A stretch of 55,861 nt of DNA from a bacterium (GTDB taxonomy: Bacteria > Patescibacteriota > Patescibacteriia > Veblenbacterales > UBA10138). Below are positions 18,770 to 24,536 of this stretch, in pieces. The notes beneath the pieces are model-generated. The model saw nothing but the letters and a program-made list of their open reading frames with translations, searched no databases and was not told where the DNA came from. Where the stretch lies: NCBI GenBank assembly GCA_020057885.1, contig JAGVEX010000015.1, forward strand, positions 1-55,861, given 5' to 3'. Position 1 is the stretch's first letter, and the number at the start of each line of letters is the position of its first letter. The position numbers were made by a program, and so were the translations under genes.

Positions 18770-19627
18770 ATGCCTCTTATATCAATTATTGTAGTTTCCT
18801 GGAATGTTAAAGAGTATCTCAGGCGCTGTTTGAATAGTTTAAAACCAGGCGTTGATAGCGGCTACTGCGAAGTTTTGGTGGTTGATAATGCTTCTGGTGA
18901 CGGCAGTGCAGATACAGTGCGCCAGTATTTTCCTTGGGTAAAATTAATGGCTTTAACAGAAAACGTTGGTTTTGCCGCGGCTAATAATTTAGCTTTTAAA
19001 CAAACACAAGGAGAAATTTTATTACTTTTAAATCCTGATACAGAGATTGAACAAGATTTTTTGCAAAATTTACTTAATTTTTATAAACAATCACCGTCCG
19101 TTGGTGTAGTTGGTGGCAGGATCATTAATGAAAATGGTACTATACAACCATCAGTTAGGCGTTTTCCCGGACTTTGGTCCTCATTACTCGACTCATTGAA
19201 ATTATTGCGTCGTTTCCCAACGCTGGCTCCGCATTATTTAGCGCGTGATTTTAATTATAACAAAACACAAATAGCTGATCAGGTGATGGGTGCTTGTTTT
19301 GCGATAAGACGTGAGTGGTGGCAAAAATTAAATGGTTTTGATGAGAATTTTTGGATTTGGTTTGAGGAAGCAGATTTTTGCAAGAGAGTTTGGCAAGATG
19401 GTGGGGAAGTTTGGTACAATCAGCAAATGATTGTTAAACATACGGGAGCGGCTAGTTTTAGCCAATTATCTTATTTTGAGAGACATAGACTATTTACTCG
19501 CAGTTTACTTCACTATTTATATAAACATAATTCTCGTACAGTTTGGTTTTTAATTTGGCTTGTAAGCCGCCCAATGTTTTTAATAACTTATCTTATTGAC
19601 CGTGTGGTACCTCTCCCAGCTCGCTAA
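18770..19627 (+). CDS. family-2 glycosyltransferase (rhamnosyltransferase-like)
   Basis: The 285-residue protein has the GT2 pattern IIVVSWNVKEYLRRCLNSL, VVDNASGDGSADTV, the NVGFAAANN motif and LLLLNPDTEIE (DxD). The acceptor region reads VMGACFAIRREWW and GFDENFWIWFEEADFCKRVW, as in WbbL-type rhamnosyltransferases. A short hydrophobic tail may bind the membrane. It builds a cell-surface glycan. The reading frame of the next gene begins before this one ends. Confidence 0.88.
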   Translation: MPLISIIVVSWNVKEYLRRCLNSLKPGVDSGYCEVLVVDNASGDGSADTVRQYFPWVKLMALTENVGFAAANNLAFKQTQGEILLLLNPDTEIEQDFLQNLLNFYKQSPSVGVVGGRIINENGTIQPSVRRFPGLWSSLLDSLKLLRRFPTLAPHYLARDFNYNKTQIADQVMGACFAIRREWWQKLNGFDENFWIWFEEADFCKRVWQDGGEVWYNQQMIVKHTGAASFSQLSYFERHRLFTRSLLHYLYKHNSRTVWFLIWLVSRPMFLITYLIDRVVPLPAR

Positions 19628-21302
19628 AAGATTTATACCTAAAAATTATCCAGGGCAGTTAGTTTTGGCCTTGTTGAGTTTTTTTATTTTTGATTTATTA
19701 TCTTGGTTAGGCTGGCAGTATGTTTGGTCGGGGAATATTATTGTTATTATTTTAGTTTTGCTTTGGTATTTAGTGGCTTGCCGTAGTTTAAGTTTAGGTG
19801 TGACCTTATTATTAACCGAACTCATAGTCGGTTCTTTTGGCCATTCCTTGTCACTTGTCTTGGGGGATTTTACGGTTTCGCTTCGTATATTATTATTTTT
19901 GGCGGCTTTTACTTTATTAATTTGGTGTCTAGTTATAAAACGCACCTTAGTTGTGTTTAAATCAGGTAGGTTGGGATGGTGGTATTTGACTTGTTTGGCG
20001 GCTTTAGGATGGGGGAGTGCAGTAGCTTTACTGAGAGGACACGGTTTGGCCGATTTCTTTCTGGATTTAAATAATTATTTGTATTTGTTGTTATTTCCAC
20101 TTTATTGGGAAGCGGCAGTTGAACAAAAATCGCTTACTTGGTGGCGGTACTTACTTTTACCGGCTTTAGGTTGGTTAGCCTTTAAAACCATAATCACTCT
20201 TTATTTGTTTAGCCATTTAGATACTTTTACTTTGTTACCTTATTATCAATGGTGGCGCCAAACTGGTTTTGGTGAGATTACTTATGTGAGTGGTAATTTT
20301 TTTCGCGTTTTTTCACAAAGTCAAATTTATGCATGCTTGGCGAGTGTAGCGGGGTTAGCTTATCTTTGGTTTAATAGGAATAATGCGATTATTTGGCATA
20401 AAATTTTACCATTATATTTTTTTACCTGGGTTAATTTAATTGTCTTGTTGGCTAGTTTATCGCGCAGTTTTTGGCTTGGTAGTACAGTGGCCTTAGTATT
20501 AATGTTTGTGCCGGCTCTAATTTATCGGCGCGCGTCAGCTAATAATTTATTAAAGTATTTATTAACCGTTTTTATTCTTATTATTTCTGCTGCTGGATTT
20601 GTTATATTTGTAACAAGGGTGAGTTGGCCACTGCCGCCCTTAGGAGAGGCTAATGCTAAAATATTTTCTGAACGCTTAACTAGTGAACCAGCCGGACAAA
20701 GCCGTTTAAAACTTTTAGGACCGCTGTGGCAAGAAGTAACCAAGCATCCTTTGATGGGAAGCGGTTTTGGTGCCACAGTTACTTATTACAGTGCTGATCC
20801 TAGAATAGTAAAAAGCACAGCTGGTGGCTCTGGTTTGGTTACTACCTATGCTTTTGAATGGGGCTATCTTGATATGTGGCTTAAGTTTGGCTTGATTGGT
20901 TTGTTTGGTATCTTAGGTTTTTTTATTGTAGTTTTGTGGCCGGCTTTTAAATATTGGTGGCGAGAAAATTCTAAAGCAGGTATATTAGCTGTAGTTATCT
21001 TAGCGTTTTTAACAATAAATTTAACCACACCATATTTAAATCATCCTTTGGGTTTAGGCGTTATTATGGCAATGGCAGCTTATTTATCCACCTTCGCGGA
21101 AGATCATGGCCGTCAGGCTGTGGATGAATGCGAATGGTGGACCCTCCGAAGCTCTAAAAGCGAAGGAGGGTGCTTCGGTGCCTGCCTGTCGGCAAGGCAG
21201 GGATTCCGCCAAAAAGATAATGAGGCGCCTGCCTGTCGGCAGGCGGGTAAGTCATCAGAGGCTTCATTTAACCAATCAGGTAAGGCTAAAACACTTTTAT
21301 GA
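19596..21302 (+). CDS. O-antigen ligase/polymerase-like membrane protein, tail altered by repeats
   Basis: The 568-residue protein has about twelve membrane helices and a large external loop with LMGSGFGATVTYYSADPR, the layout of O-antigen ligases and polymerases (WaaL/Wzy). It would join or extend surface glycan. The start (TTG at 19596, or GTG at 19602) is uncertain and lies within the previous gene. The last 65 residues or so are unlike the rest: polar and Cys-rich (GACLSARQGFRQ, APACRQAG), encoded by three GC-rich palindromes at 21141-21245. The frame stays open and still ends in an ATGA overlap with the next gene. Confidence 0.8.
   Translation: MTVWYLSQLAKRFIPKNYPGQLVLALLSFFIFDLLSWLGWQYVWSGNIIVIILVLLWYLVACRSLSLGVTLLLTELIVGSFGHSLSLVLGDFTVSLRILLFLAAFTLLIWCLVIKRTLVVFKSGRLGWWYLTCLAALGWGSAVALLRGHGLADFFLDLNNYLYLLLFPLYWEAAVEQKSLTWWRYLLLPALGWLAFKTIITLYLFSHLDTFTLLPYYQWWRQTGFGEITYVSGNFFRVFSQSQIYACLASVAGLAYLWFNRNNAIIWHKILPLYFFTWVNLIVLLASLSRSFWLGSTVALVLMFVPALIYRRASANNLLKYLLTVFILIISAAGFVIFVTRVSWPLPPLGEANAKIFSERLTSEPAGQSRLKLLGPLWQEVTKHPLMGSGFGATVTYYSADPRIVKSTAGGSGLVTTYAFEWGYLDMWLKFGLIGLFGILGFFIVVLWPAFKYWWRENSKAGILAVVILAFLTINLTTPYLNHPLGLGVIMAMAAYLSTFAEDHGRQAVDECEWWTLRSSKSEGGCFGACLSARQGFRQKDNEAPACRQAGKSSEASFNQSGKAKTLL
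21141..21245. repeat. three palindromic repeats inside the 3' end of the 19596 gene
   Basis: The hairpin ACCCTCC / GGAGGGT (21141-21171) is followed by CCTGCC-TGTCGGCAA-GGCAGG (21181-21201) and CGCCTGCC-TGTC-GGCAGGCG (21226-21245). The CCTGCC arms match those in the tRNA-associated repeats at 1412-1450 and 5221-5240. All are in frame, so the protein is extended and not cut. Confidence 0.75.
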
Positions 21303-22363
21303 TAACGAAGCGCTATCCAGTTTCTATTCACCTTGTAACTTACAATGGCGCGGCCTGGTTGCCGTGGTGTTTAAAATCCATTCTCCATTCTAGTGAACAG
21401 GAGTTTTTCCTAATGATAATTGACAATGGTTCAATTGATGAATCATGGTCTATTATTCAGACTTTTTTGAATAATAATCCAATTTTAGCTAGTCGTTCGC
21501 GCCTAGTGCAAAATAAAGTAAATTTAGGTTTTGCTCGTGCCCATAATCAGGCGTTAGCTTGGACCGATAGCGATTTTGTGTTAGTTCTTAACCAAGATGT
21601 TTTACTAGATGAAAATTATATAAAAGCGTGCAGTACTTGTTTGCAAAAAAGGCCCGATGTAGCGGCAGTAACCGGAAAAATTTTGCAATGGAATTTTGAC
21701 TCGGACAATTTTCATCCCACTGAGTTAAAAAATTTACAAGCGATAAGCAAAATAGATTCAATTGGTTTGAGTATAAAAAGAAATCGCCAAGTGGTTAATT
21801 TAGGTGCCGGTGTGGTTGATCACGGGCAATATGAGAGTGAATGTGAAGTTTTTGGCGTACCTGGCACCGCCCCGGTATATCGCCGATCCGCCTTAAACGA
21901 AATTATTCAAGGCAAAGAAATTTTTGACAACGATTTTATTTCTTACAAAGAAGACGTTGATTTAGCTTGGCGCTTGCGTTTAGCGGGGTTTAATTCCTGG
22001 TATTTGCCCCAAGCGGTGGCTTACCATGACCGAAGTTTGGGCGGTGGAAATAGTTGGCAAGAACAAATTAAAAAACGTAAATCTTGGCCGCGTGACTTTA
22101 AAATATATTCTTGGGTAAACCATTTGGCCGTTTTATTAAAAAATGATAGTTTTTTAAATCTTTTTTTAGATTTGCCATGGATAGCAATTCAGGAGTTTAA
22201 AAAAGCAATATACTTGTTAATTTTTGACGAGGGTGTCTTAAGAGGTGGTTTGGCGAGGCTAATAAGGTTATTTCCTGTTTTTTGGGGTAAACGTCGTTTG
22301 TTAAAAAAGATTCGTAAAATTAAGCCAATTGATTTACGTAAACATTGGAGGAATGTTAAGTAA
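21299..22363 (+). CDS. family-2 glycosyltransferase
   Basis: The 354-residue protein has GT2 motifs VSIHLVTYNGAAWLPWCLKS, IIDNGSIDESW, NLGFARAHNQA and VLVLNQDVLLDE, followed by the acceptor-side EVFGVPGTAPVYRRSA and YKEDVDLAWRLRLAGF. The catalytic loop reads QD where DxD is usual (NQDV), which is seen in this branch. The C-terminus is basic and hydrophobic. It overlaps the preceding gene by ATGA and belongs to the polysaccharide cluster. Confidence 0.85.
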   Translation: MITKRYPVSIHLVTYNGAAWLPWCLKSILHSSEQEFFLMIIDNGSIDESWSIIQTFLNNNPILASRSRLVQNKVNLGFARAHNQALAWTDSDFVLVLNQDVLLDENYIKACSTCLQKRPDVAAVTGKILQWNFDSDNFHPTELKNLQAISKIDSIGLSIKRNRQVVNLGAGVVDHGQYESECEVFGVPGTAPVYRRSALNEIIQGKEIFDNDFISYKEDVDLAWRLRLAGFNSWYLPQAVAYHDRSLGGGNSWQEQIKKRKSWPRDFKIYSWVNHLAVLLKNDSFLNLFLDLPWIAIQEFKKAIYLLIFDEGVLRGGLARLIRLFPVFWGKRRLLKKIRKIKPIDLRKHWRNVK

Positions 22364-22367
22364 ATAT

Positions 22368-23168
22368 ATGAAACTTTCTATTATAATTTTAAATTATCAT
22401 AGTATAGGTTTGGTAAAGCAATGTCTAAAAGGTATTGAATCAGCGAAGCCGAATTTAGATTATGAAATAATAGTAGTTGATAATGCTTCCCAAGACGGTT
22501 GTCGTGAAATGTTAGCAAATAGTTTTGCCCAAGTTACTTGTCTGGAATTAAAAACCAATCGCGGTTATGCCGCTGGTAATAATGCCGGTTTAAAACAAGC
22601 GCGGGGCGAATATTTATTAATTTTAAATCCCGATATTGCTATTTTACCAGGGAGTTTAGAGCAATTAGTTAAATTTATGGATGAGCAGCCCCAAGTCGGA
22701 TTGGCTGGCCCCAGGTTGGTAAATCCCGATGGTAGTTTACAATATTCTACTTATAATTTCCCTTATTTTTGGTTGCCACTTTTTAGGCGTACTCCTTTAG
22801 GTAAATTATCATTTATAAACAAATGGCTTCAACATTATCAAATGTTAGATTGGGATCATAAAAATAATAAGCCAGTGGACTGGCTTTTGGGGGCTTGTTT
22901 AGTAGTGCGAGCGCAGGCGATGCAAAAAGTGGGCCTGCTTGATGAGCGTTATTTTTTATATGTGGAAGATACGGATTGGTGCAGACGTTTTTGGCAAGCT
23001 AGTTTTGAAGTGTGGTATGTGGCTAACGTGGAAATTGTGCATTATCACGAGCGGCTTTCAGCTCAGGCCACTGTGGGCGCTTTTTTCCGCCGCATTACGT
23101 GGATTCATATTGCTTCGTGGGTAAAATATTTTTTAAAGTGGGGATTAAAAGTTCCTAAAGTAAAATAA
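22368..23168 (+). CDS. family-2 glycosyltransferase
   Basis: The ATG at 22368 is preferred over two upstream in-frame starts because it follows the previous stop by 4 nt in the usual AT-rich context and gives the standard KLSIIILNYHSIGLVKQCL start. The 266-residue GT2 protein shows VVDNASQDGC, TNRGYAAGNNAG, LLILNPDIAI (DxD) and the acceptor region LLGACLVVRAQAM with LYVEDTDWCRRFW. It is the last gene of the glycan cluster; the region beyond carries a terminator that mainly serves the opposite strand. Confidence 0.88.
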   Translation: MKLSIIILNYHSIGLVKQCLKGIESAKPNLDYEIIVVDNASQDGCREMLANSFAQVTCLELKTNRGYAAGNNAGLKQARGEYLLILNPDIAILPGSLEQLVKFMDEQPQVGLAGPRLVNPDGSLQYSTYNFPYFWLPLFRRTPLGKLSFINKWLQHYQMLDWDHKNNKPVDWLLGACLVVRAQAMQKVGLLDERYFLYVEDTDWCRRFWQASFEVWYVANVEIVHYHERLSAQATVGAFFRRITWIHIASWVKYFLKWGLKVPKVK

Positions 23169-23197
23169 AAAGGCCCTCTGCAAAATTGCTGCAGAGG
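23162..23197 (-). terminator. rho-independent terminator of the minus-strand RNA
   Basis: Stem CCTCTGCA / TGCAGAGG (23175-23182 with 23190-23197) with a 7-nt loop. On the minus strand it is followed by GGCCTTTTTATTTT, a proper U-tract. On the plus strand the tail is AACCTTATT, weaker, though it may also end the glycan cluster. Confidence 0.8.
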
Positions 23198-23446
23198 AAC
23201 CTTATTCGAGGACGAGGATAGAATTGTGTGATATATAAGGGTGTTCGGATTAAGGCGATAAATCCCTAAATTAAGGGAGAGTAAATGAGTCGCTCGAGGT
23301 GCGCCCTGTATTGTTGTTGTAAAACAACGCCCTCACGACGTTAACCCCACACAATTATCTTTGTAAATGTCCTCTTGTTTTTGCACTTCTGCCGAACTCC
23401 TCTTAATGAGTGATAAAATACTCATTAATTTTGCCTATTAAGTGCT
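23172..23446 (-). ncRNA. novel structured RNA candidate, about 275 nt
   Basis: No protein is encoded between 23169 and 23528. On the minus strand a consensus promoter (-35 at 23481-23476, -10 at 23458-23453) and a strong terminator (23197-23162) delimit a transcript of about 275 nt. It starts with a 9-bp hairpin (TTAATGAGT / ACTCATTAA, 23403-23428). A closing stem then brings 23374-23369 to 23213-23208 (GAGGAC / GTCCTC) and 23356-23348 to 23230-23222 (AATTGTGTG / CACACAATT). Inside are a GTCG...CGAC arm with a GTTGT-loop-ACAAC hairpin and a TCCCT-TAATT-AGGGA hairpin. I find no hallmark of tmRNA, RNase P RNA or SRP RNA. A 6S-like regulator or an unknown class is possible. Confidence 0.65.
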
Positions 23447-23452
23447 GGGAAT

Positions 23453-23481
23453 AACTTAGCAAATTAGTCTATTTTTGTCAA
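23453..23481 (-). promoter_or_regulatory. promoter of the structured RNA
   Basis: Minus strand: -35 TTGACA (23481-23476), 17-bp spacer, -10 TAAGTT (23458-23453). The perfect -35 and optimal spacing make this one of the strongest promoters in the window. It is back to back with the mreB promoter, whose -35 starts 11 nt away. Confidence 0.7.
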
Positions 23482-23491
23482 TAGTTTAAAG

Positions 23492-23520
23492 TTGACGGGA
23501 AGAGTTTTTTTAGCTAAGAT
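23492..23520 (+). promoter_or_regulatory. promoter of the second mreB, nearly leaderless
   Basis: -35 TTGACG (23492-23497), 17-bp spacer, -10 TAAGAT (23515-23520). The ATG follows after only 8 nt, so transcription must start at or within 1-2 nt of the start codon. Confidence 0.7.
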
Positions 23521-23528
23521 AAGCCTAT

Positions 23529-24536
23529 ATGTTTGTCAAAAAAATTGGCATAGATTTGGGTACAACTTACTCGCTCGTGCATGTGCCCGGGCGCGGAATT
23601 GTTATTAACGAACCTTCAGTAGTAGCTATTTCTACAGCTGATCATAGTGTTTTGGCTGTGGGCGAAGAGGCTAAAGAAATGATAGGTCGCACCCCTGACA
23701 CAATTGTGGCTCTTAGGCCTCTTAAAGATGGAGTAATAGCAGATTATAGAACCACTGAAGCTATGTTGCGCTATTTTATTAATAAGGCGCTGGGTGGTAT
23801 TCGTTTTTTTAAACCAGAAGTAATGATAGCTGTGCCTGCTGGTATTACTTCTACTGAAAGACGCGCTGTCATAGACGCTACTATGGCGGCTGGTGCTAAA
23901 GCGGCTTACATTATCAAAGAGCCAATCGCCGCGGCCATTGGGGCTAATATTCCAATTGGTTCGGCTTCAGGACATATGATAGTTGATATGGGCGGCGGCA
24001 CAAGTGAAGTGGCAGTTATTTCTTTGGGTGGAATTGTGGCCAATACCTCAGTGCGCATTGGTGGTAATAAATTAGATGCTGCTATTATGGACTTTATTAG
24101 AAAAAAATATGGGCTGGCTATAGGCGAGCAGAGCGCCGAAGAAGTTAAAATTAAAATTGGTTCAGCTATGTATTTAGAAGATAAGTTATCTATGGATGTT
24201 CGTGGACGTGATATGGTTTCTGGCTTACCGCGTACAGTCACTGTAACTTCCGATGATATTACCGAAGCCATTCAAAACGAGCTAGAAGGAATTATTCACG
24301 CGGCTAAATCTGTTTTGCAGGTAACACCACCTGAATTATCAGCTGATGTTATAGATAAAGGCATGGTGCTTTCCGGCGGTACGGCGCTTTTGCGCAACAT
24401 TGATAAACTTTTTGCGCAGGCGACAGGTGTTAGTGCTTATTTGGCTGATGATGCGCTTTTGTGTGTGGCTAAAGGTACTGGCGTAGCATTGGATAATTTG
24501 GAATCGTATAAGAGGAGTATATTGTCAACAAAGTAA
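23529..24536 (+). CDS. mreB: MreB-family actin homologue (second copy, stand-alone)
   Basis: The 335-residue protein has all actin-fold motifs of MreB: phosphate 1 KIGIDLGTTYSLVHV, connect 1 GMVIADY-type region (DGVIADYRTTEAML), phosphate 2 MIVDMGGGTSEVAVISLGG, and adenosine motif GMVLSGGTALLRNIDKL. MreB filaments guide cell-wall synthesis on the inner membrane face. A second, canonical MreB heads the mreBCD operon at 40546. This one is alone, has its own leaderless promoter and has LGTTYS where the other has LGTANT, so it is a diverged paralogue. Confidence 0.9.
   Translation: MFVKKIGIDLGTTYSLVHVPGRGIVINEPSVVAISTADHSVLAVGEEAKEMIGRTPDTIVALRPLKDGVIADYRTTEAMLRYFINKALGGIRFFKPEVMIAVPAGITSTERRAVIDATMAAGAKAAYIIKEPIAAAIGANIPIGSASGHMIVDMGGGTSEVAVISLGGIVANTSVRIGGNKLDAAIMDFIRKKYGLAIGEQSAEEVKIKIGSAMYLEDKLSMDVRGRDMVSGLPRTVTVTSDDITEAIQNELEGIIHAAKSVLQVTPPELSADVIDKGMVLSGGTALLRNIDKLFAQATGVSAYLADDALLCVAKGTGVALDNLESYKRSILSTK

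Follow-up and report, generated by a model that had tools for sequence, protein, structure and literature searches.

A 360-bp gap next to mreB, a gene for cell shape, in the genome of an uncultured ultrasmall bacterium, is best read from its sequence, and with moderate confidence, as holding a single-copy, lineage-restricted candidate gene for an orphan small RNA (sRNA). The putative transcript of ~280 nt would occupy positions 23160–23446 on the minus strand of the window (the whole stretch of 55,861 nt analysed here), its ends being placed from the promoter spacing and the terminator. To our knowledge little is known about the small RNAs of Patescibacteria, and a candidate so well delimited, its promoter and terminator both being clear, merits a transcriptome check. 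It is probably a local curiosity and not a new housekeeping RNA.

Layout of the gap and its promoters

The gap (23169–23528) was found to contain no open reading frame (ORF) of at least 70 aa, in agreement with the first-pass annotation, which had described it as gene-free. It is bordered by a convergent glycosyltransferase-like gene (22329–23168, plus strand) and by a divergent mreB-like gene (23529–24536, plus strand), the product of which shows 88–94% amino acid identity within the family. Read along the minus strand, the gap presents in order a TTGACA hexamer, a 17-nt spacer, a TAAGTT hexamer, a probable transcription start at ~23446, then a body that folds and finally the terminator. This is, at the level of sequence, the layout of an independent sRNA gene, with a non-coding body flanked by its own promoter and intrinsic terminator.

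The putative RNA promoter (23453–23481, minus strand) consists of a −35 TTGACA (23481–23476) and an extended −10 TAAGTT (23458–23453) with a TG directly upstream. As this −10 fits just three of the six consensus positions, the promoter was not listed by a consensus scan; the window has four occurrences of the motif TTGACA-17-TANNNT, where 0.76 would be expected. Back-to-back with it lies the mreB promoter TTGACG-17-TAAGAT (23492–23520, plus strand), which is conserved in the family, where mreB promoters take the form TTGAC[A/G/T]-17-TA(A/G)nnT. This form was established by script for five genomes and, for the other three, the loci of which the script had left un-reoriented, by eye from oriented sequences. 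In this lineage TAAGTT is a credible −10, since the family mreB promoters have the same layout as the RNA promoter. Conservation of the mreB promoter (TTGACn-17-TAnnnT) extends through the whole family, although everything upstream of it differs from genome to genome.

The intrinsic terminator hairpin (23170–23203, minus strand; z −5.8) has its stem at 23198–23174, followed by the T-rich tail CCTTTTTATT, and the U-tract reaches the stop codon of the glycosyltransferase gene that converges on it, where the transcript would end. The sequence thus bears out the promoter and the terminator described in the first-pass annotation.

Elsewhere in the window, palindromic GCCTGTCGGCAGG-type repeats at 21180–21245 lengthen the C-terminus of an O-antigen-ligase-like ORF (19596–21302) and translate as PACRQAG, which suggests that repeats were inserted into the end of that gene.

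Predicted fold

The predicted fold comprises two domains upstream of the terminator. The 5′ domain (23383–23445, minus strand; z −3.4) is formed by GCACTT/AAGTGC around both a hairpin TTAATGAGT/ACTCATTAA and an unpaired AAGAGGAG stretch. The core domain (23208–23374, minus strand) is closed by a first helix, GAGGAC (23374–23369) with GTCCTC (23213–23208), and by a second, (A)ATTGTGTG (23355–23348, without the bracketed base) with CACACAAT(T) (23230–23223, likewise). The 5′ hairpins and each closing helix reached mean pairing probabilities of ~0.96–0.98, which bears out the 5′ hairpin and two-part closing stem of the first-pass annotation. The "at least three inner arms" described there were not confirmed: the inner 107 nt of the core are not clearly above chance (z −1.7, with 10 of 150 shuffles as good) and, with the exception of TCCCT/AGGGA, most inner pairs have a probability of ~0.55, so the arms must be regarded as uncertain.

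Compared with dinucleotide shuffles, the 288-nt segment folds with a z of −4.63, the body without the terminator with −3.55 and the 171-nt core with −3.57. A z of −3.5 was reached by only three of 278 windows of 171 nt sampled over the 55.9 kb. On the plus strand the core has a fold of about the same quality, an unavoidable property of inverted repeats, and the strand assignment therefore depends on the promoter and terminator. Of 95 gap segments associated with terminators in the relative G006, 33 gave z ≤ −3.5, a rough figure obtained with 12 shuffles per segment and some overlapping segments; a good gap fold is therefore commonplace in the family.

Search for relatives

Besides the promoter, terminator and stems, the sequences show the absence of a detectable copy from relatives. 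Searches by blastn with the segment in 57 relatives and 380 genomes of the phylum returned chance matches of 20–34 nt only, and the best family and class matches inspected fall in apparent protein-coding sequence. A single-sequence covariance model, which is insensitive, recovered nothing but the candidate itself in the eight family genomes, with no copy in the other seven, and in 286 class genomes it gave, besides the candidate, one chance-level match (E 0.09). Applied to the whole of G006 (872 kb), it found nothing beyond chance. As a control, the RNase P RNA and tmRNA of the present genome were found by blastn in G006, the one relative examined in full, at ~67% identity (E 3.5e-30 and 5e-17, respectively). 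Any housekeeping RNA conserved to a similar degree should therefore have shown; a faster-diverging RNA could have escaped the searches.

The abundant, phylum-level housekeeping RNA imagined in the first-pass annotation is hence unsupported, since no copy was found in the 7 family, 286 class and 380 phylum genomes searched, and we dropped the claim on account of this missing conservation. The same annotation had held that stems lacking conservation in relatives would be due to chance, and such a lack is largely what these genomes revealed. The other part of its proposal, a new structured RNA gene, fared better: with its own promoter and terminator and without a match to any Rfam family, it stands as the best reading.

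Within its own genome the candidate is single-copy, its other blastn matches being fragments of 20–28 nt with E 0.08 or worse, which rules against a multi-copy mobile element of MITE-like type. Phage and plasmid records gave no match beyond one 27-nt stretch. In viral contigs two exact 17-mers match five stretches, extending to at most 18–20 nt, and an 18-mer matches none. The structured, terminator-bearing gaps of G006 were also read by eye for a diverged homologue and none was convincing; a 1,119-bp gap in G006 C1 (AATTAATTGTG) initially resembled the candidate but differs in helix order when read by eye. Two long gaps of that genome, L150 (G006:C1:30821-31939) and L159 (G006:C6:197001-197930), have in common a sequence (GCCACCATATTTAAGCCC...) that folds strongly and is in part repeated; it may be a structured element present in several copies.

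Function and alternative explanations

Under the favoured reading, a sigma70-type promoter of its own would drive the minus-strand transcription of an RNA of ~280 nt. This RNA would begin with the 5′ hairpin domain, continue with the core that the two-part stem closes, and finish with the intrinsic terminator where the convergent glycosyltransferase gene ends. We infer that it would act in trans by means of exposed segments, the unpaired AAGAGGAG linker being an example. None of the mRNA start regions inside the window paired with it better than with shuffled RNA, and no preferred target emerged. As the −35 hexamers of the RNA (23476–23481) and of mreB (23492–23497) are only 10 bp apart, simultaneous occupancy by two polymerases is hardly possible, and this back-to-back arrangement leads us to propose mutual promoter interference, in which a polymerase at one promoter would exclude the other and transcription of the RNA would also temper mreB. 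Both the trans-acting role and the interference with mreB are functional proposals.

The case for an sRNA gene is made by a fold beyond shuffles, by a strong terminator and a matching promoter on one strand with proper spacing, by the identity in form between this promoter and the mreB promoters of the family, by the lack of a coding ORF, and by the syntenic gene pair of G006, whose short spacer without the RNA makes the segment a discrete insertion or loss. Against it stand the lack of a homologue, the frequency of strong folds beside terminators in this family, the similar folding of the plus strand of the core and the failure of any mRNA start region in the window to pair better than with shuffled RNA.

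The main rival, which we consider unlikely but to be taken seriously, is that the segment is DNA of no function, either inserted or in decay, whose inverted repeats are due to chance and whose promoter and terminator are leftovers or serve only to insulate the neighbouring genes. The context of mreB speaks for this. In G006 an orthologous glycosyltransferase gene (62% identical) directly precedes mreB with a spacer of ~63 bp and no RNA. Every family genome has different contents before mreB, and "upstream of stand-alone mreB", offered by the first-pass annotation as a landmark for finding relatives, is consequently not common to the family. Absence from all relatives, the abundance of strong folds in family gaps and inner arms at chance level point the same way. 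On the other hand, promoter, folded body and terminator are correctly ordered and spaced on one strand, only about 1% of the sampled windows fold as well as the core, and a single copy does not suggest a mobile element present in several copies.

A short-peptide mRNA is a good deal less probable. An ATG-initiated frame of 30 codons, MSILSLIKRSSAEVQKQEDIYKDNCVGLTS (23333–23425, minus strand), lies downstream of the promoter, possibly together with an overlapping 27-codon frame, and an AGGAG is found within the former ahead of an in-frame GTG. However, neither frame has a Pfam match or more than chance-level matches in G006, and the 30-aa frame has no tblastn match in phages. Its start codon is sequestered in the 5′ hairpin, the structure reaches well past the frame and, by our own estimate, a frame of such length would be no surprise by chance in ~280 nt of like composition.

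We give still less credence to a conserved but fast-diverging housekeeping RNA of 6S type, for which the relatives would be too distant for detection. The 6S slot does appear empty, as the Rfam model RF00013 detects no such RNA in the family, and the insensitivity of a single-sequence model would leave room for such an RNA. Nevertheless, RNase P RNA and tmRNA of 67% identity were recovered in G006 by blastn and the candidate was not, the covariance model finds no second genome with it, and a branched core with a separate 5′ domain is unlike the 6S rod. A new structured-RNA class of one patescibacterial genus, the transcription of which, back-to-back with mreB, would coordinate cell-wall or shape growth with surface-glycan synthesis, seems just as improbable, and as it stands a candidate known from one genome opens no new RNA class.

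Comparison with known RNAs

Rfam models at the gathering threshold gave no match over the interval, and permissive thresholds yielded chance matches only, with E 2.9 or worse (e.g. ctRNA_p42d at E 2.9). The Rfam search proposed in the first-pass annotation places the interval in no known family, and the models of the four RNAs whose landmarks that annotation could not find (tmRNA, RNase P RNA, 6S and SRP RNA) do not match here either. The tmRNA (RF00023) and RNase P RNA (RF00010) are of a size class like that of the candidate; their identity with it is ruled out, as their models do not match here and the genuine copies lie elsewhere in the same genome, at G000:C5 and G000:C6.

Bacterial SRP RNA (RF00169, RF01854) has a large form whose size range includes the candidate, but neither model matches anywhere in the genome and the helix-8 GGAA/AGCA motif is lacking from the candidate, both by reading and by local scan. 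The pathway itself may be absent from the family: RF00169 matched neither in this genome nor in 57 relatives (RF01854, applied to this genome, gave none), the Ffh M-domain PF02978 was found in none of the eight family genomes (G000–G007), and the fully read G006 has no ORF with the Ffh/FtsY GTPase motifs searched. Controls were positive for RF00169 in 11–12 of 14 and for PF02978 in 14 of 14. We found no statement on the absence of the SRP pathway in this family in the literature.

With 6S RNA (RF00013) the candidate shares a similar size class and a closing stem with an internal loop. The model has no match in the window and weak matches only elsewhere (E 2–7), and whereas 6S RNA, which binds RNA polymerase and templates pRNA, forms one long rod around a large central bubble, the candidate is predicted to have a 5′ domain set apart from a core with a branched interior. 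The closest likeness is to the orphan intergenic sRNAs of bacteria, lineage-restricted RNAs with sigma70 promoters. The candidate, for which no relatives were found, has in common with them a position in a gap between convergent and divergent genes, a promoter of its own, a folded body and a terminator hairpin followed by a U-tract.
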